From positions 1 to 21,829 of IMG/VR virus record IMGVR_UViG_3300030390_002383: DNA of 21,829 nt. One strand, written 5' to 3'. The notes beneath the pieces are model-generated. The model ran no database searches and was not told the DNA's origin. It worked only from the letters and a program-made list of their open reading frames with translations. A program made the position numbers and the translations under genes. Of this stretch, positions 3-21,829 are shown in pieces (position 1 is the first letter of the stretch; each line of letters opens with the position of its first letter). The DNA comes from a virus.

Positions 3-281
3 AAAGAAGAATTTATTAATGATCATAGATTACAAGAAAGAGCAATGCATATGTTATTATCGCATAATAGGAAAAAATTAAAACGTTACATTAAAAAATA
101 TGAAGGGCAAATTATACATGGTATTCTAATTACAGAATCAGGTATATTAGCAGCTGCACATTTAGCTGGACAAGGTAATGTGCGTAAATTCTTAAAGAAT
201 GGTTTTGTATTTAAGGATGGAAATGGAACTAAAATGACATCTTACATGAAACAATTTGGAGGTTATATTCTAAATTTATAA
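3..281 (+). CDS. C-terminal part of a muralytic-type (lysozyme/transglycosylase-associated) protein, 5' end outside window
   Basis: The reading frame is open from base 3 to the stop at 279-281, so the first in-frame ATG at 45 is probably internal and the true start lies upstream of the window. The visible part is basic (HNRKKLKRYIKKY), followed by a stretch with GILAAAHLAGQGNVRKFL, a DGNGT motif and the ending SYMKQFGGY. From memory, this pattern (AAHL-G-G-V-KFL, D-NGT, Y-KFGGY) forms the end of phage and bacterial proteins linked to peptidoglycan cleavage or virion-associated lysis. No catalytic residues are visible because the N-terminal part is missing. The lectin-fold protein downstream fits a virion or lysis neighbourhood. 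The coding call is solid; the functional call is tentative. Confidence 0.5.
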   Translation, partial: KEEFINDHRLQERAMHMLLSHNRKKLKRYIKKYEGQIIHGILITESGILAAAHLAGQGNVRKFLKNGFVFKDGNGTKMTSYMKQFGGYILNL

Positions 282-2507: not shown

Positions 2508-3206
2508 ATGGCAGAAAACAAACGAAGAAAAATTCACGAGGAATTAGAAGTTGTACAAGAAGGTTTTGCTAATGGTGTTGCACCTGGTTTTCCTTTAGAA
2601 CAATCTGAAAAAGATAAAATGATTATCCAAGCAGAAAAAGCATATGGTCAATTTTTAGATGCTTTAAAATGTGATTGGAGAAATGATCCAAACTCAATGG
2701 AAACACCTCGTCGAGTAGCTAAAGCATATGTAAATGATTTATGGGCAGGACGTTATACAGCAATGTCCCCTATTACATCCTTCCCATCAGATGGTTATGA
2801 TGGAATTATAATAGAAAGAAATATACCTTTAACTTCAATGTGTTCACACCATCATCAAACTATTGGGGGTGTAGTTCATATTGGTTATATTGCTGGAGAA
2901 GAAGGACAAGTAATTGGTCTTAGTAAATTAAATAGAATTGTTGAATTATTTGGTAGAAGGGGAGCAATTCAAGAACAATTAACTTCTGCAATACATAATG
3001 CAGTAGGAAAAATTACTGAAGGTAATAGAGGGGTTATTGTTACTATCGTAGGAACACATAATTGTGTAAGTTGTAGAGGTGTAAAACACCAAGGAGCAGC
3101 TATGGTAACAACAAAAGCTTCAGGGGTATTTAGAGATAATGATAATTTATCAAGAAAAGAATTTTTTGACAGTCTAAAGATTAATAACGGAGGACATAAT
3201 ATTTAA
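2508..3206 (+). CDS. folE: GTP cyclohydrolase I
   Basis: A 232-aa homologue of FolE, which converts GTP to 7,8-dihydroneopterin triphosphate, the first step of folate, pterin and 7-deazaguanine synthesis. Zinc ligands are visible: C112 with H114/H115 in MCSHHHQT, and HNCVSC at 184-189 (C186 matches E. coli C181). The VIGLSKLNRIVELF helix (135-148) and GVKHQGAAMVTTKASGVF (191-208) are hallmark segments. Length matches bacterial enzymes (about 220 aa). The leader is A/T-rich with no Shine-Dalgarno site, and a promoter-like motif lies just upstream. No queC, queD, queE or thymidylate synthase is in the window, so the end product (folate boost or modified guanine) cannot be decided. Confidence 0.95.
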   Translation: MAENKRRKIHEELEVVQEGFANGVAPGFPLEQSEKDKMIIQAEKAYGQFLDALKCDWRNDPNSMETPRRVAKAYVNDLWAGRYTAMSPITSFPSDGYDGIIIERNIPLTSMCSHHHQTIGGVVHIGYIAGEEGQVIGLSKLNRIVELFGRRGAIQEQLTSAIHNAVGKITEGNRGVIVTIVGTHNCVSCRGVKHQGAAMVTTKASGVFRDNDNLSRKEFFDSLKINNGGHNI

Positions 3207-3219
3207 ATAAATAACAGTT

Positions 3220-3717
3220 ATGAGTAAAAGTAATGTACCATTTGTAAATGAAGTAGAGGAATTTAATTCCACTATGGGCAAACCAAATAATTATGAACCA
3301 ACAATCCCCGAAAAAAAAGAATGGAAGTTTGTTTATGATTTCATCCTTGAAGAACTTGAAGAATATAAAGCTGCATGTGAAGCAGGAGATATTGTTGAGA
3401 TTCTTGATGCTTTATGTGATATTACCTATGTTTCATTGGGTAACGGAGCTATGTTACATGGTCTTAAGGATAAAATACGGCCAGCCTATCAAGAAGTACA
3501 AGGGTCGAATATGTCAAAAGCTTGTTCAAACGAAGAAGATGCACAGGCAACCGTGGATAAAAGGTCAATTGAACAAAAGGAACCGTGTCACTATGAAAAA
3601 GTTGGCGATTATTATATTGTCTATAGAACACGAGATAGGAAAGTAATGAAAAATGTTAAATATTACAGACCAGATTTAAAACAATTTTTCACTAAAGAAG
3701 AGTTAGAGAATGTATAA
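3220..3717 (+). CDS. MazG/phosphoribosyl-ATP-pyrophosphohydrolase-like NTP pyrophosphohydrolase
   Basis: A 165-aa protein with an all-alpha NTP-PPase core at about residues 35-95. It shows an acidic EELEEY helix (44-49) and, after a short gap, a second helix GDIVEILDALCDITYV (56-71) that supplies E60, D63 and D67, the usual Mg2+-binding pattern ExxE...ExxD. A segment around AYQEVQGSNMSK (89-100) is typical of phage and bacterial members. The C-terminal third (YYIVYRTRDRK then YYRPDLKQFF) looks like a small beta extension. Likely role: removal of pyrophosphate from NTPs or dNTPs, or alarmone control. It starts 13 bases after folE and overlaps the polymerase gene by 8 bases, which suggests co-translation. 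The substrate is unknown. Confidence 0.75.
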   Translation: MSKSNVPFVNEVEEFNSTMGKPNNYEPTIPEKKEWKFVYDFILEELEEYKAACEAGDIVEILDALCDITYVSLGNGAMLHGLKDKIRPAYQEVQGSNMSKACSNEEDAQATVDKRSIEQKEPCHYEKVGDYYIVYRTRDRKVMKNVKYYRPDLKQFFTKEELENV

Positions 3718-5392
3718 AAAGGCCTTTGCTAGACGTCTTAAAAATAATAAGTTTCTAATACATTTATGGGAAGATAAAGGTTATTCTAAAATAGAATGGG
3801 ATAATAAAGCTTATATTGAATGTCATGAAGCAGATGCGCAGCATACTGGGTTAAATGGAGAACCTCTAAAAAAGGTTTCAAACTGGAAGTCAGACAATTC
3901 AAAACTTCATTTTCATGATATGCCTGCTTACCAAAAATTCTTAGTTGAAAAATATGGTATTAACGATGAACCATCTACTACTCATAGAGAAATATTTTTT
4001 GATATAGAAACAGAAATGGGAGATGCTCTTACTGAGGAATACATAAAATCAGCTCCTAAAAAAGTAACATCAATAGCTTGGTATGATAAGCAAGTAGATT
4101 TATGGGGTATAGTAATTCTTGATCCTAAAGGTCAACTAAACCATACTAAAGCTAAAAATAAAGAAATTATACCTTGTAAAACTGAAGAAGAATTATTAGG
4201 TAAATTTTTAGAAAGATTTAGAGATATTGATCCTGATATTATTGTAGGGTGGAATAGTGATTATTTTGATGTTCCTTATTTATATTATAGAATGTGTAAT
4301 GTGTTAGGTGAAGATTTTGCTAAACATTTATCTCCTATAGGATATGTAAGAGAAACTCCATGGTTTAAAGATCAATACATACAAATTTGTGGTGTTGAAT
4401 CTTTAGATTATATGCGTTTACATAAAAAGTTTAGTTGGGCAGATGAACCATCAATGAGATTAGATGCTATTGGAGAAAAATATGTAGGAATGAATAAGAT
4501 AGAATATGAAGGTAATCTTGATGCTTTATTTGAAACTGATATTCATAAGTTTATTAAGTATAATTTTGTTGATGTTGAAATTCTTAAAAAATTAGATGAA
4601 AAGTTAGATTATTTAGCACTTGTAAAAAATCTATCTCATAAAGGAAAACATAATTATAGTGAAGTCTATGCTAATACTAAAACCCAAGATGGAGCTATTT
4701 CAGCTTATTTATTAAGTAAAAATATTATTCCACCTGCTAAAGATAGAAATCCAATGTCTAAAAAAGGATATGCTGGAGGTTATTTATTTTGTCCTAAGGC
4801 AGGAATATATAATTATGTATTTGATGAAGATTTAACTTCACTATATCCATCAATTATTATGACTGTTAATATAGGTAAAGAAACTATGGTTGGCAGAATT
4901 ATAGATGCTGATGATAGAAATAATCGTTTAGGATTAAATGATTTAAAATGTAGAGATTATGCCGAAGAATTAATTGTTGAAAATATTAAAAGAAGTAGAA
5001 CAAAAGTTAATATAGGTAGAATTGTTGCAATGGTAGAACAAAACGATTTATCAATTTCAGCAAATGGGGTTATGTTTAATACAGATCGTGAATCTGTACT
5101 ATCAACTATATTAAAAAAGTGGTTTGATGAAAGAGTTTTATATAAAGGCAAAATGCAAAAAGCATTTAAATCAGGAGATAAAGAGCTAGGTGCAGCTTAT
5201 TATATGAAACAATATACTATGAAAATTCTACTTAATTCGTTATATGGAGCCACAGCCTTAGGTAGTTTCAGATATGGCAACGTTATATTATCTGAAGCTA
5301 TAACGCTTAGTGGACAGCGTATAATACAAGAATCTGCGTTAACCGCAAATACTCATATGAATAAAGTTATAAGAGAAGAAATTACATTATGA
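3710..5392 (+). CDS. 43: DNA polymerase family B (gp43), N-terminal part: 3'-5' exonuclease plus palm motifs A and B
   Basis: The 560-aa first piece of a T4-type replicative polymerase. Exonuclease motifs: Exo I FFDIET (96-101; D98, E100), Exo II VGWNSDYFDVPYL (179-191) and Exo III YNFVDVEIL (284-292; D288). Polymerase motif A is DLTSLYPSI (374-382), where D374 matches T4 D408. Motif B is KILLNSLYG (505-513). Motif C is absent from this ORF and appears in the next, which starts at 5389 and shares an ATGA stop/start with this one. All proofreading residues are intact. The start at 3710 overlaps the MazG-like gene by 8 bases and gives an N-terminus of the expected length. With its partner the enzyme totals 870 aa, close to T4 gp43 (898). 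Confidence 0.93.
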   Translation: MYKKAFARRLKNNKFLIHLWEDKGYSKIEWDNKAYIECHEADAQHTGLNGEPLKKVSNWKSDNSKLHFHDMPAYQKFLVEKYGINDEPSTTHREIFFDIETEMGDALTEEYIKSAPKKVTSIAWYDKQVDLWGIVILDPKGQLNHTKAKNKEIIPCKTEEELLGKFLERFRDIDPDIIVGWNSDYFDVPYLYYRMCNVLGEDFAKHLSPIGYVRETPWFKDQYIQICGVESLDYMRLHKKFSWADEPSMRLDAIGEKYVGMNKIEYEGNLDALFETDIHKFIKYNFVDVEILKKLDEKLDYLALVKNLSHKGKHNYSEVYANTKTQDGAISAYLLSKNIIPPAKDRNPMSKKGYAGGYLFCPKAGIYNYVFDEDLTSLYPSIIMTVNIGKETMVGRIIDADDRNNRLGLNDLKCRDYAEELIVENIKRSRTKVNIGRIVAMVEQNDLSISANGVMFNTDRESVLSTILKKWFDERVLYKGKMQKAFKSGDKELGAAYYMKQYTMKILLNSLYGATALGSFRYGNVILSEAITLSGQRIIQESALTANTHMNKVIREEITL

Positions 5393-6321
5393 AACATTTA
5401 GAAGATACCCCATGGTGGATTTGTGATCCTGAAGATAAAAATTATGTAGCATATTCTGATACAGATTCTATTTATATCCATGCTGAACCTTTACTTAGAC
5501 ATTTATATCCAACATTTGAAGAAATGCCTAGTGAAGAAAAAGATGATAAATTAGAGGAAATTGCTTTAAAGTATCAAGATATTATAACAGATTCTTATAG
5601 TTCACTAGCAGCTAATTGTTTTAATGCTAAAGGAAAGCATAGATTAGAAATGAAAACAGAATGTGTAATTAGATCAGCTTATTTTAGAGCTACAAGACGT
5701 TATGCACAGTGGATTACAAAACAGGAAGGTATAACAAAAGAAACACTAGATGTTAAGGGATTAGAATTTAAAAAAGCAAATTTTCCTCCTGTACTAGGCG
5801 ATTTTTTTAGAAAAGCATTAATTGATGTTTTAAAAGGAGCAGAACAAAGTGAAATTGATAGTAGATTAAAACTATTTAAAACACAAATTTTAGATGGAAC
5901 TATACCTTTAACTAAATTAGGAAACCCAACATCAGTAAAAAAATTAAATAAGTATACAGAACGTAAAGCTAGAGCTGGAGAAATGTTTTCAATTATGGCT
6001 AAAGGTGCACCTGCAGCTGTTAAAGCAACAGTAGTTTATAATGATTTATTAAAGTTTTGGGGTTTACATAAAGAACATAATTACATAACTCAAGGTAGTA
6101 AAGTAAAATGGATTTATATGAAACCTAATCCATATCAAATTGATGCTATTGCTTTTTTAGACTATGATTTACCAGAAAAAATTCGTATATTCATTGAGCA
6201 ATATGCTGACAGAAAAAAAATATTCGAGTCCATACTATTAAATAAATTAGAAGGATTTTATAATGATTTAGGATGGACACTAAATTTAAATCCATACCAA
6301 CAAATGTTTTTCAATATATGA
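5389..6321 (+). CDS. 43: DNA polymerase family B (gp43), C-terminal part: motif C palm and thumb
   Basis: The 310-aa second piece. Motif C, YSDTDSIYIHAE (22-33), carries the catalytic pair D24 and D26 (T4 D621/D623). The K-K-Y thumb-region segment around VKKLNKYTERKARAG (about 184-198) and later residues match the family C-terminus. The piece ends NPYQQMFFNI, a hydrophobic tail reminiscent of clamp-binding peptides. It starts inside the stop codon of the first piece (ATGA at 5389-5392), and the sliding clamp follows by another ATGA at 6318-6321. No conserved segment is lost at the join, so the two chains probably assemble into one active enzyme. A single-base sequencing error is less likely because a well-placed ATG exists at the break, but it cannot be excluded from one read. 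Confidence 0.92.
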   Translation: MKHLEDTPWWICDPEDKNYVAYSDTDSIYIHAEPLLRHLYPTFEEMPSEEKDDKLEEIALKYQDIITDSYSSLAANCFNAKGKHRLEMKTECVIRSAYFRATRRYAQWITKQEGITKETLDVKGLEFKKANFPPVLGDFFRKALIDVLKGAEQSEIDSRLKLFKTQILDGTIPLTKLGNPTSVKKLNKYTERKARAGEMFSIMAKGAPAAVKATVVYNDLLKFWGLHKEHNYITQGSKVKWIYMKPNPYQIDAIAFLDYDLPEKIRIFIEQYADRKKIFESILLNKLEGFYNDLGWTLNLNPYQQMFFNI

Positions 6322-11865: not shown

Positions 11866-12095
11866 TAACACAAGTATACAATATGTTAAAAACATCTGCA
11901 GAAGCAGATAAAACAAAGGCTCTTCTTAGTTTAGAATTATTATCTAACCATGCTGTAGGTATTGGAGACCATTCAACTGAAGATTTTTATAAAAACGCAG
12001 AAGAAGCACTTATAATGTTGGTTGACGCAGATGATAGATTAGCCACATTAAAAAAATATTTTGAACAACCAGCAAAAGAAGTAATTAATGAGTGA
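11862..12095 (+). CDS. Conserved small phage protein, 77 aa, helical
   Basis: A mostly helical product with a distinctive centre, LLSNHAVGIGDHSTEDFYKN (residues 27-46), and a C-terminal ADDRLATLKKYFEQP. I recall near-identical 'GIGDHST' proteins of unknown function in marine T4-like phages, but no biochemical role. It is coupled to gene 62 by ATGA and overlaps the next gene by 8 bases, so it belongs to the replication operon. Confidence 0.72.
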   Translation: MITQVYNMLKTSAEADKTKALLSLELLSNHAVGIGDHSTEDFYKNAEEALIMLVDADDRLATLKKYFEQPAKEVINE

Positions 12096-12519
12096 TATAG
12101 TTAAAAAATATTATGAAGATATGAGTGATAGAGAAATTATGGATTCTAAATTCGCAGAAAAAAAACCTTTGGTATTAAAGTCAGAGGTAGTAGATATATT
12201 TGAAAAAGAATATCCTGAATTAGCTGATGAGTTTAAAAAAATACAAACAGAAATGTATGAAATGTTTGCAGCTAAACATATGGATTATGGTCTAAATAAT
12301 ATAGCATTAGGAGGAGATATTTTAAATAGTAAAGCAGATAAAAAATTCTCATTAACGGGATTAGCAATTAGACTAACTGATAAAATCAGTAGATTAAAAA
12401 ATCTTTTAACTAATGGGAAAAATTATGTTAAAGGTGAAGCAATGGAAGATACATTTCTTGATGTTGCTAATTACGGAATAATAGGTTTGCTAGTAGGTCG
12501 TAATAAATGGAAAAAATAA
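12088..12519 (+). CDS. Nucleotide-modification-associated domain 1 protein (DUF1599-like)
   Basis: A 143-aa protein. Residues about 60-142 match the DUF1599/Nmad1 pattern: an AAKHMDYGLNNIALGG segment (61-76), then SLTGLAIRLTDKISRLKNLL (88-107), an acidic AMEDTFLDVANYG helix (118-130) and a terminal W. This family was named for its association with base-modification genes in phages and is thought to act on nucleotides, but its reaction is not settled. The D/E-rich helices recall MazG-like pyrophosphohydrolases. The N-terminal 55 residues are helical and not recognised. It starts within the end of the preceding gene, and the downstream nuclease follows after 3 bases. Confidence 0.78.
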   Translation: MSDIVKKYYEDMSDREIMDSKFAEKKPLVLKSEVVDIFEKEYPELADEFKKIQTEMYEMFAAKHMDYGLNNIALGGDILNSKADKKFSLTGLAIRLTDKISRLKNLLTNGKNYVKGEAMEDTFLDVANYGIIGLLVGRNKWKK

Positions 12520-13751: not shown

Positions 13752-15185
13752 ATGAAAGAAGGTTATATCAAACAAAAAGATAGAAAAAATATCTTGTTGT
13801 TAACGGATGACATTAGAGTACATTCAGGGGTTGCCCAAATAGGTAGAGAAATAGTAACAAATACAGCTCATAGATATAATTGGGTACAATTAGCTGGAGC
13901 AATTCAACATCCAGATAAAGGACAATTACAAGATTTAAGTGAAGATACTAACAAACGTATGGGGCTTAAAGATTCAAAAGTAGTTTTATATCCGGTTGAT
14001 GGTTATGGAGAACCTAAGTTATTAAAAGAAGTTATTAAAAGAGAAAATATTGATGCTTTATTTATAATAACAGATCCAAGATATTTTGAATGGTTATTTG
14101 CTATTGAGAATGAAATTAGAACTCAAATTCCTATAGTTTATTTAAATATTTGGGATGATTTACCGGCTCCAATGTATAATAAAGAATTTTATAATTCTTG
14201 TGATGCTTTATTTGGTATATCTAAACAAACTAAAAATATTAATGAAATGGTTTTAGGTAAAGAAGGTAAATCTAAAATTATTAAATATGTCCCTCATGGA
14301 TTAAATCATCATATTTTTAAACCTATAGATAAGGATAATGAGGATCTTAAAAATATTCAAAACCATATAGCTGGGGGTTCTAATAAAGATAAATTTACAC
14401 TATTTTTTAATTCAAGAAATATTAGAAGAAAATGTATTCCCGATACTATTTTAGCTTGGAAATATTTTTTAGATGGTTTAGATAAAAAAGATAGAGAAAA
14501 TTGTCAATTTATTCTACATACAAATCCTATAGATGAGAATGGTACTGATTTACCTGCAGTGGTTAAATTTTTATTCCCTAATAAAGATGGTAACGTAATA
14601 ATATCAGCAAACAAATTATCTACGGAACAAATGTCTTTATTATATAATCATGCAGATGCAACAATTTTATTATCATCAGCAGAAGGATGGGGATTATCTC
14701 TTACTGAATCATTGTTAACAGGTACACCTATTATAGCTAATGTAACTGGAGGAATGCAAGATCAGATGAGATTTGAAGATGAAAATAATAATTGGTACAC
14801 ACCAAATCCAGATGTTCCCTCAAATCATAAAAAAACATATACAAAATGTGGTGAGTGGGCATTACCTGTATTTCCTTCAAATTTATCATTAGTAGGTTCT
14901 CCAAAAACTCCATACATTTATGATGATAGGTGTAGTGCTGAAGATGCTGCTTTACAAATAAAAGCTATGTACAATATGGGTAGTGAAGAAAGAGAAAGAA
15001 TAGGTAAATTAGGTATGGAATGGGCTTTAGGTGATGAAGCTGGATTTACTTCTGAAAAAATGTCTAATAAAGTAATAGATGGTATGGATGAGTTATTTTC
15101 AACATGGGTGCCTAGAAAAAAATTCACTTTTAGTAGTGATAAAGATGCAGGAAGTAAAGTTTTAAATCATAAATTATTATATTAA
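13752..15185 (+). CDS. Glycosyltransferase, GT-B fold, GT4-like
   Basis: A 477-aa sugar transferase. The N-terminal domain starts with KNILLLTDDIRVHSGVAQIG (12-31), the first Rossmann strand and acceptor loop. The linker YVPHGLNHHIFKP (179-191) matches the 'V-P-H-G-x-x-x-x-x-F' signature of GT4 enzymes. In the C-terminal domain AEGWGLSLTESLLTGTPIIA (310-329) carries the EX7E motif (E311, E319) for nucleotide-sugar binding. ATG at 13752 is preferred over an in-frame TTG at 13746. Donor and acceptor are unknown. The next glycosyltransferase starts one base after its stop. It probably acts at the cytoplasmic face on a phage or host glycan. Confidence 0.85.
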   Translation: MKEGYIKQKDRKNILLLTDDIRVHSGVAQIGREIVTNTAHRYNWVQLAGAIQHPDKGQLQDLSEDTNKRMGLKDSKVVLYPVDGYGEPKLLKEVIKRENIDALFIITDPRYFEWLFAIENEIRTQIPIVYLNIWDDLPAPMYNKEFYNSCDALFGISKQTKNINEMVLGKEGKSKIIKYVPHGLNHHIFKPIDKDNEDLKNIQNHIAGGSNKDKFTLFFNSRNIRRKCIPDTILAWKYFLDGLDKKDRENCQFILHTNPIDENGTDLPAVVKFLFPNKDGNVIISANKLSTEQMSLLYNHADATILLSSAEGWGLSLTESLLTGTPIIANVTGGMQDQMRFEDENNNWYTPNPDVPSNHKKTYTKCGEWALPVFPSNLSLVGSPKTPYIYDDRCSAEDAALQIKAMYNMGSEERERIGKLGMEWALGDEAGFTSEKMSNKVIDGMDELFSTWVPRKKFTFSSDKDAGSKVLNHKLLY

Positions 15186-15186
15186 T

Positions 15187-16497
15187 ATGAAAAATACATT
15201 TGTTATAAGTTGTCCAATAGATACTTACAGTGGATATGGAGCTAGATCTAGAGATTTTGTTAAATCCTTAATTGAATTAGATCAATATGAAGTAAAGATT
15301 TTAGCACAAAGATGGGGAAGAACTTCAGATAATTTTATAGATAGTAATAAAGAAAAATGGGGTTTTTTAAAAAAGCATATAATCCCTCAATTAGTAGACA
15401 AACCAGACTATTGGTGTCAAGTTACTGTACCTAATGAATTCCAACCAGTTGGAAAATATAATATTGGTTTAACAGCAGGAATTGAAACTACTGTTTGTGA
15501 TGGTAGTTGGCTTGAGGGTTGTAATAAAATGGATTTAATTTTAACTTCTTCCAATCATTCTAAAAAAGTATTTGAAACTTCTCAATTTTATAAAGATGGT
15601 AAAGAAGATCAAATAATTAAATTAGAAAAACCAGTTAAAGTTTTATTTGAAGGTGCTGATTTAGATACTTTTAAAATAACTAAAACTTTTAAAAACAAAG
15701 AATTATATAATCACATAAATGATATACCTGAAAAAGATGCCTATCTATTTGTTGGGCACTGGATGCAAGGTGAATTAGGACATGATAGAAAAAATGTAGG
15801 ATTATTAGCAAAAGTGTTTTATGAAATATTTAAAGAAGCAAAAAACAAACCAGCATTAATTTTAAAATCTTCAGTAGTAGGAGGAAGTCTTTCAGATAGA
15901 GAAGAAATACTAAGAAGACTAGATATGATTAAAGAATCAGTTCCTTCTAAAGATTTACCATCAATATATCTTATTCATGGTGAGTTATCTGATGAAGAAA
16001 TGAATGAACTTTATAATCATCCAAAAATCAAAACAATGGTTTGTATAACAAAGGGTGAAGGATTTGGAAGGCCTTTACTTGAATTTAGTTTAGTTGATAA
16101 ACCTATTATTACAACAGGTTGGTCTGGTCATATAGATTTTTTAAATGAAGGAGATGTTGGATTTGTTAGTGGAGAATTAGAAAATGTTCATGCATCAGCT
16201 CATGTTCCTAATATGTTATTAAAAGAATCACAATGGTTTAAACCTAATTTAGGTGATGTTAAATATTTACTTAATGATACAAGTAAAAACTATAAAGATT
16301 GGTTAACTAAAGCTAAACGTCAAGGAAAAATTTCTAGAGAAAATTTTAGTTTTGAAAAAATGAAAGAACAATTAAAAACTCATTTAGAAATATCATTACC
16401 AATACTTCCTAAAAAAATGCAATTAAAATTACCAGGAATGGATAAAATTAAAATGCCTAAAAAAAGTAAAATTAAACATTTAAAAAGTATAAAATGA
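15187..16497 (+). CDS. Glycosyltransferase, GT-B fold, second GT4-like enzyme
   Basis: 436 aa. The N-terminus FVISCPIDTYSGYGARSRDF (5-24) is a Rossmann strand with glycine-rich loop. TKGEGFGRPLLEFSLVDKPI (288-307) contains EX7E (E291, E299), followed by TTGWSGHIDFL. It is not a close copy of the preceding transferase, so it probably adds a different sugar or linkage. The last ~30 residues are strongly basic (KKMQLKLP...KKSKIKHLKSIK), which may mediate membrane or nucleic-acid contact. It ends in an ATGA overlap with the zinc-ribbon gene. No transmembrane segment is visible. Confidence 0.82.
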   Translation: MKNTFVISCPIDTYSGYGARSRDFVKSLIELDQYEVKILAQRWGRTSDNFIDSNKEKWGFLKKHIIPQLVDKPDYWCQVTVPNEFQPVGKYNIGLTAGIETTVCDGSWLEGCNKMDLILTSSNHSKKVFETSQFYKDGKEDQIIKLEKPVKVLFEGADLDTFKITKTFKNKELYNHINDIPEKDAYLFVGHWMQGELGHDRKNVGLLAKVFYEIFKEAKNKPALILKSSVVGGSLSDREEILRRLDMIKESVPSKDLPSIYLIHGELSDEEMNELYNHPKIKTMVCITKGEGFGRPLLEFSLVDKPIITTGWSGHIDFLNEGDVGFVSGELENVHASAHVPNMLLKESQWFKPNLGDVKYLLNDTSKNYKDWLTKAKRQGKISRENFSFEKMKEQLKTHLEISLPILPKKMQLKLPGMDKIKMPKKSKIKHLKSIK

Positions 16498-16985
16498 TAA
16501 CAGATAATTTAGAAACGTGTAGTAGATGTAGTGGTGATGCCTGTTATGTACAGGAAGTAAATGGAATAAAATTATACCAATGTTATGGTTGTGGTTTTAT
16601 GACATCAGATGTAATGAAAAGAGGAGAAAAATTTCTTGAAGAACAAATGGAAATACTTCCAGAACTTTATAAAGTCTTATTAGGTGAAGATGATAAAGGT
16701 CGTGTTTGGATGCCTCAAACAGTAAATTTACCTCAACAAGGGATGGTATTTGCTACTGTAGCTAAAGAATTTGGGGATCCTGATTCACCAGCAGCTGTTG
16801 ATAATTATGAATGGGCTGCAGTAAAGGCAATTAAAATAAAAGATAAAGATAAAGAAAAATATCCTATACCTAATAAGGAAGGAGAGTATTATGAATTTAG
16901 GATGGATATGACAACAGAAAAAAGATTTTCACATAAAGATTTTGTTGAAGCGTTAGACTATATAAATGTATTTCAAAATGATTAG
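16494..16985 (+). CDS. Zinc-ribbon hypothetical protein, 163 aa
   Basis: The N-terminus has two CxxC pairs, TCSRC (C9, C12) and CYGC (C30, C33), separated by a short beta hairpin, which gives a zinc ribbon. The rest is an alpha/beta domain (MVFATVAKEFGD..., DNYEWAAVKAIKI..., YYEFRMDMTTEKRFSHKDF) of unknown function. I recall similar CxxC proteins as uncharacterised members of marine T4-like phage genomes. It sits inside the glycan cassette, joined by ATGA to the second GT and overlapping the epimerase. DNA or protein binding is possible; a sugar role is not shown. Confidence 0.7.
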   Translation: MITDNLETCSRCSGDACYVQEVNGIKLYQCYGCGFMTSDVMKRGEKFLEEQMEILPELYKVLLGEDDKGRVWMPQTVNLPQQGMVFATVAKEFGDPDSPAAVDNYEWAAVKAIKIKDKDKEKYPIPNKEGEYYEFRMDMTTEKRFSHKDFVEALDYINVFQND

Positions 16986-17931
16986 AGGAATTAAAGAAAC
17001 AATAAGAAAACTAATTTTACCTAAAAAGAAAGGTAAATTAAAAGCTATAGTAACAGGGGGTAATGGTTTTATAGGATCCCATATAGTAGATGAATTAGTA
17101 AATAATAAAAAATTTGATGAAATAAGAATAATTGATAATCAATCATCAGATGCTCATGAACATTTTTATTTTTCAAAAAGTGAAAAAGTAAGAAATTTTG
17201 TTTGGGATATTGCTGATTTTGATTTAATTAGACCTTTATTTAATGATGTAGATGTTGTATTTCATTTAGCAGCAGAGTCTAGAATTCAACCAGCAATCCA
17301 AAATCCAGCTTTAGCAGCAAAAACAAATGTAACAGGTACTTGTAATGTTTTACAAGCAGCAAGAGAAGCAGGTTGTGATAGAGTAATTTATTCATCAACA
17401 TCATCAGCTTATGGTTTAGCCAATACTCCTCCATTAAAAGAAGACATGCCTAATGATTGTCTTAATCCTTACTCAGTTACTAAAGTAGCTGGAGAAGAAT
17501 TATGTAAAATGTATACTAGCTTATTTGGATTAAAAACTATAACATTTAGGTATTTTAATGTTTATGGAGATAGACAGTGTACTAAAGGACAATATGCCCC
17601 AGTAATAGGTTTATTTTTAAAACAGAAAGAAGCAGGTGAAAAAATGACAGTAGTAGGTGATGGTTTACAAACTAGAGATTACACTAATGTAAAAGATGTT
17701 GTAAAGGTTAATATGCAAGCTATGATTACTAAAAAAGGGTTTGGTGAAATTTATAATGTAGGAACAGGAAAAGAACATAGCATATTAGATTTAGTAAATA
17801 TAATAGGGGGAAAACATAAACATATACCTGAAAGAATTGGTGAAAGTAGAAATACTAAAGCTGATATTTCTAAAACAATGAAAATATTAAATTGGAAGCC
17901 TATTATTAAATTAGAAGACTACTTAAGTTAG
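16978..17931 (+). CDS. NAD-dependent sugar-nucleotide epimerase/dehydratase (extended SDR, GalE/WbpP-like)
   Basis: 317 aa. The NAD-binding TGGNGFIGSH (26-35), an acidic residue after strand 2 (IIDNQS), VFHLAAESR (94-102), the catalytic SSTSS (139-143) and Y165-x3-K169 in NPYSVTKVAG are all present, as is FRYFNVYGDRQ (190-200), which precedes the substrate-binding region. The RYFNVYG pattern is typical of UDP-glucose/UDP-GlcNAc 4-epimerases, but the substrate cannot be fixed. ATG at 16978 (8-base overlap) is preferred to 16966. About 20 residues of basic leader precede the Rossmann fold. It likely supplies an activated sugar to the neighbouring transferases. Confidence 0.9.
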   Translation: MIRGIKETIRKLILPKKKGKLKAIVTGGNGFIGSHIVDELVNNKKFDEIRIIDNQSSDAHEHFYFSKSEKVRNFVWDIADFDLIRPLFNDVDVVFHLAAESRIQPAIQNPALAAKTNVTGTCNVLQAAREAGCDRVIYSSTSSAYGLANTPPLKEDMPNDCLNPYSVTKVAGEELCKMYTSLFGLKTITFRYFNVYGDRQCTKGQYAPVIGLFLKQKEAGEKMTVVGDGLQTRDYTNVKDVVKVNMQAMITKKGFGEIYNVGTGKEHSILDLVNIIGGKHKHIPERIGESRNTKADISKTMKILNWKPIIKLEDYLS

Positions 17932-17958
17932 GTATATCAATATATTTTTCGTATATTT
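17929..17958 (+). promoter_or_regulatory. Promoter-like motif ahead of the second glycan segment
   Basis: TATATTT at 17952-17958, preceded by TTTTTCG, resembles the boxes at 2481, 7617 and 10267. The upstream element at the matching 20-base spacing is TAGGT (17929-17933), a weaker version of TTGGA. The ATG of the next glycosyltransferase lies 19 bases downstream at 17977. It begins inside the epimerase stop codon and would start a transcript for 17977 onward. Confidence 0.45.
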
Positions 17959-17976
17959 AATTAAACAAATTAAAAT

Positions 17977-18600
17977 ATGAAATTAAGCTACGCTATTACT
18001 GTCTGTAACGAATTTACAGAAATTCAAAGATTAATTCCTTATCTTTTAAAGAATATAAGATTTGAAGATGAAATTGTAGTTCTATATGATTCAAAGAACG
18101 GTAATCCCAAAATAGAAGAATTTTTAAGAGCAAAGTCTGTAAATGGTGAATTTAGTTGGCATAAAGGTGAATTTAAAGGTCATTTTGCTGATTGGAAGAA
18201 CTATTTAACAACTTTATGTAGTGGTGATTGGATTTTTCAAATAGATGCTGATGAAATGCCTCATGAAAATTTAATAGAATTTCTCCCAGAAATAATCATA
18301 AGTAATATTGAAAATGAAGTAATTAGAGTTCCTCGAGTTAATACTGTATATGGTTTAACTGAAGAATATATTAGAAAATGGGGTTGGAATATTAATGATA
18401 GTGGGTGGGTGAATTGGCCTGATTTTCAATGGAGAATTTATAAAAATCACCCTAAAATTAAATGGGAAAATAAAGTACATGAAGTACTTACTGGTTTTAA
18501 ACATTATTCTGACCTTCATGAAGATGAAGTATGGAGTTTATATCATCCTAAAGATATAGAAAAACAAGTTAAACAAAATAATTATTATAGCACTTTTTAA
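17977..18600 (+). CDS. Glycosyltransferase, GT-A fold, GT2-like
   Basis: 207 aa. The N-terminus KLSYAITVCNEFTEIQRLI (2-20) is the classic first strand of GT2 enzymes. DEIVVLYDSKNG (31-42) holds the uridine-contacting Asp. WIFQIDADEMPH (85-96) carries the DAD metal-binding motif (D90, D92). KWENKVHEVLTG further on matches the family's acceptor-side motif. It is short for the family but keeps the core elements, so it looks complete. No membrane segment is visible. Preceded by a promoter-like motif and followed by a tiny ORF after one base. Confidence 0.85.
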   Translation: MKLSYAITVCNEFTEIQRLIPYLLKNIRFEDEIVVLYDSKNGNPKIEEFLRAKSVNGEFSWHKGEFKGHFADWKNYLTTLCSGDWIFQIDADEMPHENLIEFLPEIIISNIENEVIRVPRVNTVYGLTEEYIRKWGWNINDSGWVNWPDFQWRIYKNHPKIKWENKVHEVLTGFKHYSDLHEDEVWSLYHPKDIEKQVKQNNYYSTF

Positions 18601-18601
18601 A

Positions 18602-18742
18602 ATGAAAGATCAACAAACAAATGGTAACCCACATACCAATGAAACTCGAAATGATTTAAATAATAAAATCAGTAAATACAAAATGCTAGGTAATAGCAAA
18701 AAAGTACAATGGTCTGATAAAAGAAGATTTAGAAATATATAA
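18602..18742 (+). CDS. Small basic hypothetical protein, 46 aa
   Basis: ATG at 18602 to TAA at 18740-18742, exactly bridging the glycosyltransferase stop (18600) and the next ATG (18744). The product (MKDQQTNGNPHTNETRND... ending WSDKRRFRNI) is hydrophilic, Asn-rich and basic at the end. No family is recognised. Support is positional. Without it, the 143 bases between 18601 and 18743 would be the only notable non-coding gap in this segment. Confidence 0.4.
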   Translation: MKDQQTNGNPHTNETRNDLNNKISKYKMLGNSKKVQWSDKRRFRNI

Positions 18743-18743
18743 T

Positions 18744-19139
18744 ATGAGAAAATACCTACCAACATTGTCTGAATTAGTAGATAGACTATCTATAGTTCAG
18801 TTAAAAGAAGTATTCATTACAGAGCATAAAAAAGAATATGCAAAAGAAATAAATGAAATAACTCATGACATTGAAGAAATACTTAAAGATGGTAAAATTA
18901 GGTTAACAGGGGAAGATGTTAGGGCAATTATAGTTTTATCTCAGATGAATCTTCATATCTGGCATAATGAAACTAAATATAGAGCTGGGACAGGTGATGG
19001 TAATTTAGGATTAACTCATGGTTTGAATGGTATTAGAAACACAGCAAAAAATAAAATTCAAGAACATAGTGATGGGAGAAAAGATTATAAAATTGATTGT
19101 ATAGCTGCTGAATTTAAAGACTGGGAAATATCATGGTAA
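18744..19139 (+). CDS. DUF4254-like helical protein in glycan cassette
   Basis: 131 aa, mostly helical. The start RKYLPTLSELVDRLSIVQLKEVFI (2-25) matches the 'L-LIDRLSI-LK' opening of DUF4254-type proteins found beside bacterial and phage glycosyltransferases. IVLSQMNLHIWHNETKYRAG (about 63-82) replaces the usual 'N-x-x-IW-xE' helix. LTHGLNGIRNTAKNKI and a KIDCIAAEF segment follow. I recall this pattern from T4-like phages as uncharacterised. The reaction is unknown; context suggests a role in glycan synthesis. It overlaps the next transferase gene by 7 bases. Confidence 0.65.
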   Translation: MRKYLPTLSELVDRLSIVQLKEVFITEHKKEYAKEINEITHDIEEILKDGKIRLTGEDVRAIIVLSQMNLHIWHNETKYRAGTGDGNLGLTHGLNGIRNTAKNKIQEHSDGRKDYKIDCIAAEFKDWEISW

Positions 19140-20008
19140 GTATAATAATTCACATATTACCCCAAGAAATTGATCAATTAGAACAAACTTTAATTGCACT
19201 AAAAAAATGTAGTGTTTATACTAGTAAAAAATACTTAGTAGAAGTTGTATTAAATAATAATCTTACAAGATGGGAGAAAAGTACTTTCCCACAGCATTTT
19301 TTTATAAATAAATTATTTGAATTAGAAAAATTAACTAAAAGTTGGGCTAAAACTAATTTTTGGGTAAGTGATAAAGGTGAATCTATGGGTTGTACAGATC
19401 CTCGTAGAAAGTGCATTCAATATGATACTGAAGCAACAATATGGTTAGATGTAGATATAGTATTTAGTGATACAATTTTAGGACACTTAGAATCAGCTAT
19501 TAATAGTATAGAAAAAGATTATTATGTAATAACTCCAGAAACAACAAGATTATGGGATAATACATGGGATGTTATTACTAATCAGGAAGCTCTAAAAGAA
19601 GAAGCTAATCATCAGAATTATTTTAATAGAGATCCTTATACTACAACTGGTTTAAAAGGAGAAGTAAATTTAAAACCCATTAATCAATTTAAATGGGCTG
19701 GAGGATGGTTTACTTGTATTTCTTCTAAATTAGTAGAAAAAGTAAAAATACCAGATGCAATGGGTCCTTATTATCAGGATGATACATTCTTAATGGTATG
19801 TTTTAGCCATTTAACAAGACTTGGATTATTAGATATAAATCAGTATGTTATGATAAATGAAGTTATAATAGAAAATAATTTATATAGATTTAACCCATAT
19901 AGTGAATATTTACATAACATAGATAAAAGGGAAGAATATAAAAAAATAGCAAACGATAATTTTGAATCGTGTGTAAAAAATACCATAAAAAAGTTTACAA
20001 AAATATGA
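19133..20008 (+). CDS. Putative glycosyltransferase, GT-A fold
   Basis: 291 aa. It starts VSIIIHILPQEIDQLEQTLI (2-21), a GT2-type first strand. IWLDVDIVF (103-111) holds a DxD motif (D106, D108). CTDPRRKCIQYDTE (87-100) just before it resembles the region that positions the donor sugar. FKWAGGWFTCISSKLVEKV and YYQDDTFLMV lie where GT-A enzymes place acceptor-binding residues (compare the common W-GG and E/D-D motifs). Donor and acceptor are unknown. It is joined by overlaps to its neighbours on both sides, with ATGA at 20005-20008. Confidence 0.72.
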   Translation: MVSIIIHILPQEIDQLEQTLIALKKCSVYTSKKYLVEVVLNNNLTRWEKSTFPQHFFINKLFELEKLTKSWAKTNFWVSDKGESMGCTDPRRKCIQYDTEATIWLDVDIVFSDTILGHLESAINSIEKDYYVITPETTRLWDNTWDVITNQEALKEEANHQNYFNRDPYTTTGLKGEVNLKPINQFKWAGGWFTCISSKLVEKVKIPDAMGPYYQDDTFLMVCFSHLTRLGLLDINQYVMINEVIIENNLYRFNPYSEYLHNIDKREEYKKIANDNFESCVKNTIKKFTKI

Positions 20009-20871
20009 AAATAATTTCACATTTTATACCACAAGAAAGATATGAAAGAAGATTAGGTAACATTGAAAGATTTAAAAATTTACCTATAACTATTTTTAAT
20101 GATAAAATAGCAACACCTGAGGAATTAGCAATAAATCCTATTAATATTCTTTTAATTAATGAGCCCAATGAATTTTTTGGATTCCATACATATGCCCAAC
20201 AATATGGACATTTATACTCAGCTATATTAAGTTGGAATTCAGATATTAATTTACCCAATTCTGAGATATTTCCTCATGGTGAAAGAAATATTGATTTAGA
20301 ATATTGTAAATCATTTAAAAATAAAGAAAAAGTATTTGAAGTTAACTTTTTAAGAGGTGTTTTAAATAAAATTGAAGGTCATCATTTAAGACATAAAATA
20401 TTTGATAAGGAATCAGAAATAAAAATACCACATAAATGGTACCCACATTTAAGTGATTTTAACCATGAAAAGAATAATAGACCAGATGGGGCTGATACAA
20501 AAGAAGGAAATCCAATTGAAGGTGAAGGTAAAAAAGAATTATGGAATAGAAATGCTATGTTTCATGTAGGAGTAGAAAATTCAAAACATAATAATTATTT
20601 TACAGATAAAATTATAGATTGTTTTTGTACTAAAACGGTTCCAATTTATTGGGGTGCTCCTTACATAGGTGATTTTTATGACGACAGAGGTATTATACAT
20701 TTTGAAGATGAAAATGAATTAGTAAATATTATTAATAATTTAAAACCTCAGGATTATCATGATATGAAACCTTATATTGAAGTTAATTATAAAAGAGCAT
20801 TAGAAAATAGTGATTTCTTTAAACGAATTGAAGAATGGATTGATAAATTAGTAGAAATAAATAACTTATAA
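20005..20871 (+). CDS. GT10-like (alpha-1,3-fucosyltransferase-type) glycosyltransferase
   Basis: 288 aa. The C-terminal donor-binding domain has MFHVGVENSKHNNYFTDKI (185-203) followed by TKTVPIYWGAPYIGDFYDD (209-227), the conserved 'F-ENS-x-x-x-Y-TEK...x-PI-W-G' block of GT10 fucosyltransferases. Here D replaces E in TEK. Phage relatives with this block exist, but the actual sugar may not be fucose. ATG at 20005 is chosen: it forms ATGA with the preceding stop, and the alternative upstream start at 19969 would add 12 residues encoded in the previous gene. The stop shares TAATG with the kinase gene. Confidence 0.78.
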   Translation: MKIISHFIPQERYERRLGNIERFKNLPITIFNDKIATPEELAINPINILLINEPNEFFGFHTYAQQYGHLYSAILSWNSDINLPNSEIFPHGERNIDLEYCKSFKNKEKVFEVNFLRGVLNKIEGHHLRHKIFDKESEIKIPHKWYPHLSDFNHEKNNRPDGADTKEGNPIEGEGKKELWNRNAMFHVGVENSKHNNYFTDKIIDCFCTKTVPIYWGAPYIGDFYDDRGIIHFEDENELVNIINNLKPQDYHDMKPYIEVNYKRALENSDFFKRIEEWIDKLVEINNL

Positions 20872-21659
20872 TGAATATACTAGTAATAGGAGATAGTTGC
20901 ATAGATGAATACATTTATTGTAGTACAGATAGATTTTGCCCTGATGCTCCAGTACCAATTTTAAAACCAGAATCATATGTTTCAACTGAAGGTATGGCTG
21001 GTAATGTAACTGATAATTTAATATCATTAGGAGCTGAAGTTAATTTAATTACAAATGCTAATCGAATTAAAAAAACAAGATTTGTTGATGAAAGAACAAA
21101 TCATATGTTTGTTAGAATTGATGAAGGGGAAAATGATATATTTCCGATTGAAAAAAGAACATTAGAAAATATTAAGTGGGACAGTTATGATGCTGTTGTT
21201 ATAAGTGATTATTGTAAAGGATTTATTACAGAAGATGATATTGCTTATATTTCTCAAAAACATACTAATACATTTTTAGATACTAAAAAATCTATTGGTA
21301 CTTGGGCTTCTGATATAAATTTTATTAAAATAAATGAAGTTGAATTAGATCATAGTATAGGATTTTTACATGATAATGAGAAATATTTTTCACAAAAAGT
21401 AATTACAACATTAGGTAGTAGAGGTGCTCAATATGAAGGACAAATTTACCCTGTAGATAAAGTAGATGTTAGAGATACTAGCGGAGCTGGTGATACATTT
21501 TTAGCAGGTTTAGTATACGCATATATAAAATGTAATATAAATAATTCTGATACACGTATGTCGGAATCAATTAAATTCGCTAATAAATGCTCAACCCAAA
21601 TAGTACAGAAAAAAGGCACAGCAAAAATTAATTTAAAAGAATTAAACAATGAAGTATAA
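20871..21659 (+). CDS. PfkB-family sugar kinase, HldE/RfaE kinase-domain-like
   Basis: 262 aa. The ribokinase-fold kinase resembles the N-terminal domain of HldE (heptose-7-phosphate kinase): NILVIGDSCIDEYIY (2-16), FCPDAPVPI (22-30), an STEGMAGNVTDNL segment (38-50, small-residue substrate loop) and the catalytic anion hole DTSGAGDTFLAGL (202-214; base D208). There is no nucleotidyltransferase domain on this ORF, so unlike bacterial HldE the adenylyl transfer would need another protein, possibly outside the window. At 262 aa it is shorter than the usual ~315-aa kinase domain. It likely phosphorylates a sugar for the cassette; heptose is a guess by similarity. Confidence 0.85.
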   Translation: MNILVIGDSCIDEYIYCSTDRFCPDAPVPILKPESYVSTEGMAGNVTDNLISLGAEVNLITNANRIKKTRFVDERTNHMFVRIDEGENDIFPIEKRTLENIKWDSYDAVVISDYCKGFITEDDIAYISQKHTNTFLDTKKSIGTWASDINFIKINEVELDHSIGFLHDNEKYFSQKVITTLGSRGAQYEGQIYPVDKVDVRDTSGAGDTFLAGLVYAYIKCNINNSDTRMSESIKFANKCSTQIVQKKGTAKINLKELNNEV

Positions 21660-21829
21660 GTTTAGTAAAAAATTAAAAGACGTAGCAATTATTCAACCAG
21701 ATATACATCATGATTATAGAGGTGAGTATGTTGAAACTTGGAATAGTGAAAACTATGCAGTATTTAATCATTTAGTTAATAATAGTAAACAAATATTCTT
21801 TAAACAAGATGATATTAGCACATCCGTAA
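21649..21829 (+). CDS. RmlC-like (dTDP-4-dehydrorhamnose 3,5-epimerase family) protein, truncated by window end
   Basis: ATG at 21649 overlaps the kinase gene by 11 bases, and the frame is open to the last base. Sixty residues are visible: basic start MKYKFSKKLKDV, DYRGEYVETWNSENYA (23-38), which matches the 'D-RG-F-E-W' opening of RmlC, and IFFKQDDISTSV (49-60), which matches 'F-QDN-S-S' just before the missing catalytic H. The core cupin beta barrel lies beyond the window. It would epimerise or modify a keto-sugar nucleotide, or be a related WxcM-like enzyme. Function is inferred from the N-terminal pattern only. Confidence 0.72.
   Translation, partial: MKYKFSKKLKDVAIIQPDIHHDYRGEYVETWNSENYAVFNHLVNNSKQIFFKQDDISTSV

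Follow-up and report, generated by a model that had tools for sequence, protein, structure and literature searches.

An uncultivated T4-like phage lineage carries a row of about 14 sugar-handling genes on a single strand, in which a front part that stays the same across some 45 related phage loci is followed by a rear part that is swapped between lineages, and in which genes for membrane assembly of a glycan are absent. We give an even chance to the reading that these genes form a modular glycan cassette, whose fixed core would start a glycan and whose exchangeable rear would add lineage-specific sugars, here through a heptose branch that would supply an uncommon seven-carbon sugar, elsewhere known in bacterial capsules. 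Such a layout predicts one common inner glycan with outer sugars particular to each lineage. Phage glycan cassettes are already known as a kind; the heptose branch and the arrangement of fixed core and swappable cargo are new. Virion or DNA glycans are known for only a few phages, and no explanation has been given of the sugar clusters of marine T4-like phages since these were first described.

The cassette and its phage setting

The window analysed here is the first 21.8 kb (21,829 nucleotides) of a 38-kb virus record (IMGVR_UViG_3300030390_002383). An earlier note on this stretch had listed a row of sugar genes comprising GT4-like, GT-A and GT10-like transferases, an epimerase, an HldE-type kinase, an RmlC-like cupin and a DUF4254-like protein; all these classes are present, contiguous and on the same strand (Table 1). 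The row is longer than the window, as past a scaffold gap it runs to about 24.8 kb of the record, adding two more SDR enzymes and one transferase-like gene. The N-run at 21830-21839 cuts the cupin gene, and comparison with the relative L004 suggests that about 100 bases are missing there.

Because phage genes resume after about 24.8 kb, the cassette is not a joined host locus, and because its gene order recurs in more than 10 other contigs, this order can be put down neither to chance nor to an artefact of joining. A chimera with a host surface-polysaccharide locus, which the earlier note had named as the finding that would overturn it, is ruled out by the extended sequence and the syntenic contigs; its description of a phage-borne cassette uniting sugar-nucleotide enzymes with transferases holds, with phage replication genes on both flanks. 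The T4-like assignment refers to a T4-type replisome (family B polymerase, sliding clamp and two-subunit clamp loader), with PHROG matches to the polymerase, the processivity factor, both clamp-loader subunits and the ligase, while the structural genes lie outside the 38-kb record.

Table 1. Features of the cassette, in window positions unless marked as positions of the record.
Feature	Position	Strand	Remarks
Conserved block CATATATGTATAGACAAATATAA	13484..13506	+	Upstream of core; candidate promoter or operator
Small core protein, 62-64 aa	13531..13725	+	Ribbon-helix-helix-like by eye only; in 54 loci
GT4a glycosyltransferase (core)	13752..15185	+	Pfam PF00534 (Glycos_transf_1) E 4e-10; phrog_2170; 57 related loci
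GT4b glycosyltransferase (core)	15187..16497	+	PF00534 E 2e-5; phrog_2170 E 1e-21
ZnP, four-cysteine zinc-ribbon-like protein (core)	16494..16985	+	Cysteines kept in most alignment rows
Epi1, UDP-glucose-4-epimerase-like SDR (cargo insert)	16966..17931	+	PF01370 E 8e-52; best PDB 4zrm
Conserved CGTATATTTAAT element	17950..17961	+	Before GT2a; conserved in relatives with closest Epi1 type
GT2a, GT-A type transferase (core)	17977..18600	+	Weak Pfam PF00535 match, E 0.004; DAD motif; conserved in 39 loci
46-aa conserved ORF	18602..18742	+	Just upstream of D4254 gene; overlooked in the earlier note
D4254, 131-aa DUF4254-like helical protein (cargo)	18744..19139	+	Weak PF14063 match; co-occurs with HldK
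GTx, GT-A type glycosyltransferase (cargo)	19133..20008	+	AlphaFold2 model and Foldseek; DVD motif
GT10, fucosyltransferase-like (cargo)	20005..20871	+	PF00852 E 5e-7; H. pylori FucT 2nzw/5zoi E 4e-7
HldK, short HldE-domain-I heptose-7-phosphate-kinase-like (cargo)	20871..21659	+	TIGR02198 E 7e-36; 4e84 E 2e-10; GAGD motif
RmlC-like cupin, N-terminal part	21649..21829	+	Goes on past N-gap to record position 22102
Cj1427-type dehydrogenase	record 22099-23040		Next after cupin; stretch downstream of cupin is L002:4100-6780
GDP-fucose-synthase-like SDR (reductase)	record 23042-23929		After Cj1427-type dehydrogenase
GTy, transferase-like	record 23901-24779		Last cassette gene

A fixed core with exchangeable cargo

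The common front part consists of a nuclease, a small protein, two GT4 transferases (in the window with the motifs EGWGLSLTE and EGFGRPLLE), a zinc protein and a GT2. It is kept over large divergence, with carriers among phages of Flavobacterium and Microcystis and, for the GT4 homologue, of Rhodothermus. The small protein has no Pfam match, and ZnP matches no known family in Pfam or PHROG and occurs among GenBank phages only in immuto. Many relatives lack Epi1 at its place between ZnP and GT2a. The claim that the two halves each have a regulatory region is borne out in part, by conserved upstream sequence: the CATATATGTATAGACAAATATAA block is near-identical in all close relatives that have this region in reach and occurs once in the window against 0 expected, while CGTATATTTAAT has two near-matches in the window and could be due to chance; scans for sigma-70 promoters and terminators gave no excess over shuffles.

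Flavobacterium phage immuto (MW353175) and Microcystis phage Mel-JY01 (PP395634) share the order nuclease, GT4a, GT4b and GT2-type gene with sugar cargo behind, whereas their cargo is made up of aminotransferases, an epimerase and other transferases and includes no Cj1427-type gene or D4254. Variable runs of glycosyltransferase and sugar-nucleotide genes are also found in the sugar (LPS) clusters of marine T4-like phages, namely the cyanophages P-SSM2, S-SM2 and S-SSM7 (PMC3037559) and pelagimyophages (PMC7029224); however, the excerpts of these papers describe neither a fixed GT4-GT4-ZnP-GT2 core nor a heptose-remodelling set, and a tblastn search of GenBank phages with five window-derived proteins did not return the marine clusters.

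Could the genes be passive cargo, either captured host sugar genes of no use to the phage or stuffer DNA, the latter an idea put forward for the clusters of LPS genes in large cyanophages (PMC3037559)? We regard this as very improbable, given that the core is retained over such divergence, the base composition is unchanged across the cassette and the catalytic motifs of its enzymes are intact. Moreover, the window's dehydrogenase sits in a mainly phage clade of its tree (with three bacterial rows), outside any bacterial genus, and the phage dehydrogenases of this type travel with D4254, their partner genes being unlike those in bacteria.

Candidate acceptors of the glycan

Which molecule would receive the glycan? 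The earlier note offered virion, DNA and host surface without choosing. We propose that the core (GT4a, GT4b, ZnP and GT2a) would begin a glycan on an acceptor that is soluble and is produced in the course of infection, and that the rear part would make and attach lineage-specific sugars, so that outer glycans would differ among relatives. A virion protein is the likeliest acceptor of the three, with a chance a little short of even, and is unproven. No phage cassette examined encodes a flippase, a polymerase or lipid-linked initiation, so that the acceptor is probably soluble. None qualifies as a Wzx/Wzy-type locus, PF02397, PF01943 and PF00953 are absent from 16 phage records, and multi-span membrane proteins number 0 among 1093 phage proteins compared with 41 of 1093 in bacterial loci; assembly of an O-antigen or capsule by the phage is hence disfavoured.

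The lack of membrane genes nonetheless leaves room for the host surface, because the transferases that build the LPS core are soluble too. In such a scheme, the phage enzymes and host machinery would together alter a surface glycan of the infected cell, be it the LPS core or a different one; the receptor would change, and superinfection or adsorption of progeny to debris would be blocked. A similar role has been suggested for the glycosyltransferases of SAR11 myophages (PMC7029224), heptose and the heptosyltransferase-like GT9 of relatives are typical of the LPS core, and the nearest characterised relative of the route makes capsule sugars. Against this, initiation, flippase and polymerase genes were not found, the GT4 pair is kept across phages of three host phyla with differing envelopes, and the phages look virulent, which would leave little time for surface turnover. 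We consider host surface remodelling fairly unlikely.

Decoration of DNA, in which the transferases would attach sugars to modified bases of phage DNA and so protect it from restriction, appears more doubtful still and gained no positive support. Replication genes surround the core, the window encodes FolE and an Nmad1-domain protein, and DpdA is present in immuto, in the relative G007 and in the record of L034. However, known DNA sugars need less than a long multi-sugar cassette. GT4a homologues occur in Mel-JY01 and RM378, whose genomes are complete and carry neither DpdA nor a thymidylate-synthase-family enzyme (PF00303), the two routes searched for, and the PF00303 protein of immuto is annotated ThyA. 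That diverse transferases can glycosylate phage DNA is as such established (Pyle 2024, cited in PMC12619734).

For the favoured virion protein, there are precedents elsewhere. In chlorovirus PBCV-1, capsid glycosylation is cytoplasmic and relies on virus-encoded soluble transferases that build a glycan whose core is conserved and whose decoration varies by strain (PMC7826918); as this is a eukaryotic algal virus with other enzymes, and the phage acceptor is unproven, the analogy is one of design only. Mycobacteriophages (Che8 and relatives) glycosylate capsid and tail subunits with phage-encoded transferases (Freeman 2023, cited in PMC12619734, PMC11256854), but belong to another host group, and no cassette of similar length that includes precursor enzymes is described in these two sources. 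The core adjoins replication genes, not structural genes, which counts against the virion-protein reading.

The rear part and a probable heptose branch

By sequence comparison, the rear part in the window's group looks like the GDP-heptose remodelling route of the Campylobacter jejuni HS:2 capsule (Cj1427, Cj1430, Cj1428), which uses the same three activities of dehydrogenase, epimerase and reductase (PMC10680097). The dehydrogenase, with the SDR motifs YAVTK and GGAGYLG, is 53% identical to Cj1427 (E 6e-103 vs 2e-18 for the next PDB family). The adjacent C3/C5-epimerase cupin, taken from the intact copy of L004, is 46% identical to its counterpart in this branch and fits GDP-4-keto-heptose epimerases (E 7e-39) better than dTDP-RmlC (9e-29), its best PDB matches being of the former type. 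The reductase belongs to the C4-reductase (GDP-fucose synthase) family, whereas its identity to the C. jejuni 414 enzyme is only 23%. Pfam alone had pointed to GDP-mannose dehydratases for the SDR genes, a reading given up after PDB comparison. Heptose is thus probably the substrate of the rear part.

Unlike the HS:2 locus, the cassette lies in a phage, has no capsule assembly genes, and has an HldE-type kinase and D4254 instead of HddA, with no HddC or GmhA; none of these three, which make the GDP-heptose substrate, was found in the record, and across 80 viral loci only HddA was, in a different phage clade. TIGR02198 is still the best family for HldK, which falls about 50 residues short of its family's length and scores 124 bits against the curated equivalog cut-off of 345, so that we call it HldE-type only. 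D4254 was described as DUF4254-like, which stands only as a weak match to PF14063, under the Pfam gathering score, with 5 of 12 family members matching (best E 0.015); its model has four helices (pLDDT 80), and structure searches yielded nothing informative (the top VIA hit, at Z 5.4, is a helical bundle; Foldseek E >1). The 46-aa ORF is 59-100% identical in relatives, 5-11 bases ahead of the DUF4254-like gene. GTx matches GT-A enzymes through its AlphaFold2 model (pLDDT 93.7; best Foldseek E 6e-7), with no Pfam match and an empty PDB profile search, and GT10 is found alongside GDP-sugar genes (15/16 vs 1/18).

In the order of steps that we infer, HldK would phosphorylate heptose-7-phosphate, the host or phage genes outside the contig would supply nucleotide activation, the Cj1427-type dehydrogenase would oxidise C4, the cupin would epimerise C3 and/or C5, and the GDP-fucose-synthase-like enzyme would reduce C4 to give an altered NDP-heptose, methylated in some relatives, which GT10 or its neighbours may transfer. 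The pathway falls short of the complete one that had been suggested: a PF00483 or PF01467 nucleotidyltransferase and a SIS isomerase were not found in the 38-kb record, nor a phosphatase in the contig. Related phages carry an RfaE-domain-II nucleotidyltransferase and a HAD phosphatase, along with the GT9; in the relative G007, the nucleotidyltransferase lies 21.6 kb downstream. Since HldE-type kinases yield the beta-1,7-bisphosphate and Cj1427 takes GDP-alpha-heptose, donor nucleotide and anomer are uncertain. One speculative possibility, which we think improbable, is a variant NDP-heptose pathway in which the short HldE-type kinase, an HldC-type nucleotidyltransferase and D4254 replace GmhA, HddA and HddC; D4254 might then be a new enzyme, for instance in place of the GmhA isomerase, and phage particles would display a new NDP-heptose as a swappable outer glycan.

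Our literature search on phage heptose pathways returned nothing relevant, and Cj1427-type dehydrogenases are essentially absent from 50,697 GenBank phage records. Metagenomic phages commonly carry the heptose branch and isolates hardly ever do, so that culture collections have missed it. With named enzymes and substrates and a close characterised relative, its chemistry can be assayed in vitro. In relatives, a 215-aa gene (c34) lies between the two SDR genes; a guess of GmhA from its length was dropped, as its sequence is methyltransferase-like.

Results

The run of sugar genes does not end at the window. Within the whole IMG/VR record (37964 bases, of which the window covers positions 1-21829), it extends past the window end with the rest of the cupin, a dehydrogenase, a reductase and GTy, after which come phage genes again, among them an HNH gene and those for a DnaB-like ATPase and a DNA ligase. 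The left flank is formed by a T4-type replisome and GroEL. As phage genes therefore lie on both sides, a host surface-polysaccharide locus joined by assembly error, the alternative named in the earlier note alongside its proposal to look for further pathway genes, is excluded. The scaffold gap within the cupin stands for roughly 100 absent bases, as judged by comparison with the related locus L004.

Features located in the record and in a relative (L002, part of the record that reaches past the window end; G007, a relative phage genome)
Feature	Position	Remark
Lysozyme-like protein	window 3-281	cut by left contig end
GTP cyclohydrolase FolE	window 2508-3206	
Family B DNA polymerase	window 3710-6321	two ORFs, four-base overlap
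Nmad1 (DUF1599) protein	window 12088-12519	
Conserved 46-aa ORF	window 18602-18742	5-11 bases upstream of DUF4254-like gene
Ten-N scaffold gap	21830-21839 of record	splits cupin
RmlC-like cupin, remaining part	past window end	first gene of extension
Cj1427-type dehydrogenase	22099-23040 of record	
GDP-fucose-synthase-like SDR	23042-23929 of record	
GTy	23901-24779 of record	no Pfam match; transferase-like by appearance only
Lysozyme-like protein	L002:9495-10085	behind cassette
Lipoprotein-like protein	L002:10658-11473	by eye
Signal-peptide protein resembling small outer-membrane barrel	L002:14351-14776	by eye
Second small locus in G007	L231:525-1853 (G007:79.0-80.4 kb)	296-aa protein without family assignment adjoins HldC/TagD-like nucleotidyltransferase

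The polymerase split is present in all close relatives; the halves lie 200-330 bases apart in freshwater relatives, and the gene is whole in the Microcystis phage Mel-JY01. The two lysozyme-like proteins are related, apparently as paralogues. By eye, the barrel-like and lipoprotein-like proteins suggest a Gram-negative host, perhaps of the Bacteroidota.

Searches of Pfam, PHROG, NCBIfam and PDB bear out the gene classes assigned from the sequence in the earlier note, the DUF4254 label of the helical protein D4254 being a weak match. The kinase HldK scores below the equivalog threshold of its family. GTx has no family match in sequence searches, and its AlphaFold2 model (pLDDT 93.7) matches GT-A enzymes, e.g. 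AvpGT, GalNAc-T2 and TarP. The 46-aa ORF is kept in about eight phages, across different cassette contexts.

A search with the glycosyltransferase GT4a matched 54 viral contigs, three isolate lineages and one huge uncultured phage. The order nuclease, small protein, GT4a, GT4b, ZnP, GT2a is retained nearly throughout these loci, many of the contigs being fragments, and the genes 3' of GT2a are swapped as blocks between lineages: a probable heptose branch in the window, L004, L007, L010, L011, L014, L019 and L052, GMD and GDP-fucose synthase with a GT10 in L020, and aminotransferase sets in L023, L028 and the Flavobacterium phage immuto. The epimerase Epi1 is an insert, because GT2a directly follows ZnP in phages that lack it. 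Phages with the closest Epi1 type carry a short conserved element 5' of GT2a, which lends partial backing to the suggestion that each half of the cassette has its own regulatory region. HNH or GIY-YIG homing-type endonuclease genes adjoin GT4a in one group of relatives; in L021, L022, L024, L028, L034, L042 and L046 such genes occupy the same site between GT4a and GT4b, which suggests that the core is prone to insertion.

The dehydrogenase of the window lineage shares 53% identity (E 6e-103) with C. jejuni Cj1427, which we take to be PDB entry 6vo6, the next PDB family following at E 2e-18; identity to the dehydrogenase of the C. jejuni 414 locus is likewise 53%. For the cupin, GDP-4-keto-heptose epimerases are the best matches (E 7e-39 to 4e-36) and dTDP-RmlC is more distant (E 9e-29); the reductase belongs to the GDP-fucose synthase family. 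In C. jejuni, enzymes with these three functions make up the heptose pathway of the HS:2 capsule (PMC10680097). In six relatives a methyltransferase-like gene lies between those for the dehydrogenase and the reductase, and a GT9 resembling heptosyltransferases is present in three. GT10 enzymes in known cases use GDP-fucose. Among unique core-bearing loci, with duplicate contigs removed by hand and relatedness uncorrected, a GDP-sugar set (dehydrogenase or GMD) is present in 15/16 loci with a GT10 versus 1/18 without.

Several D4254- and HldK-bearing relatives also encode an RfaE-domain-II nucleotidyltransferase, a HAD phosphatase and another cupin, and so hold most of a pathway; these three were not found in the window's 37964-base record. 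In G007 an RfaE-domain-II family nucleotidyltransferase lies 21.6 kb downstream of the main cassette, a distance that in the window's phage would fall past the contig end.

Discussion

Where did the heptose branch come from? The dehydrogenase family occurs on at least 169 viral contigs, of which we kept 80, together with 80 cellular loci; a single GenBank phage record of 50,697 encodes it at E <1e-40 (35% identity), and D4254 is absent from all of them. HddA and HddC accompany the dehydrogenase in 48 and 45 of the 80 cellular loci, and HddC in none of the 80 phage loci. HddA (23 phage loci) and D4254 (37) never co-occur (p 2e-8, counting related phages as independent), and D4254 is present in 22 of the 23 phage loci bearing HldK. 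In the tree, the 33 phage sequences that have D4254 or HldK as a neighbour all fall in one clade (SH-aLRT 97). Bacterial MAGs or SAGs contribute just three rows to it, and these may be phage contigs; bacterial entries inside the clade include L072 from a Prochlorococcus single-cell genome, which bears D4254 and HldK, and L067 from a Gammaproteobacteria MAG. A second phage clade (support 99), in which most loci have HddA, is placed among cellular sequences. Phages therefore probably acquired the branch on two or more occasions, and the window belongs to the phage-resident lineage.

What is the glycan attached to? No convincing membrane protein is among the 445 proteins encoded by the cassettes of the core group. 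In the dehydrogenase set, four or more hydrophobic segments are found in 0/1093 phage versus 41/1093 cellular proteins (the equal totals are a rechecked coincidence), distributed over 0 phage versus 30/80 cellular loci (p 6e-11, again counting related phages as independent), and 16 phage records lack the families for lipid-linked initiation and flipping. A phage-encoded capsule or O-antigen route is thus unlikely. Our leading, still tentative, candidate is a virion protein; the occurrence of the GT4a family in phages whose hosts span different phyla fits a phage-made acceptor. The host surface ranks second, through modification of the LPS core using host enzymes, and since LPS-core transferases are soluble, this is compatible with the absence of membrane proteins. 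DNA ranks third: immuto and G007 possess DpdA, but both DpdA and the thymidylate-synthase family are absent from two complete genomes that encode GT4a homologues, and co-occurrence gives a DNA acceptor no support. With FolE and Nmad1 in the window and DpdA in these two relatives, the phage DNA may carry 7-deazaguanine modification independently of the cassette.

Within the open-licence literature we found no published phage heptose-remodelling branch or core-and-cargo layout. Large sugar clusters are already known from T4-like phages (PMC3037559, PMC7029224), and glycosyltransferases belong to the core genes of a lineage of large phages associated with Bacteroidota (PMC12619734). In design, the cassette is reminiscent of capsid glycosylation in chloroviruses, in which a conserved core with variable decoration is made in the cytoplasm (PMC7826918), a likeness that we read as analogy and not kinship.
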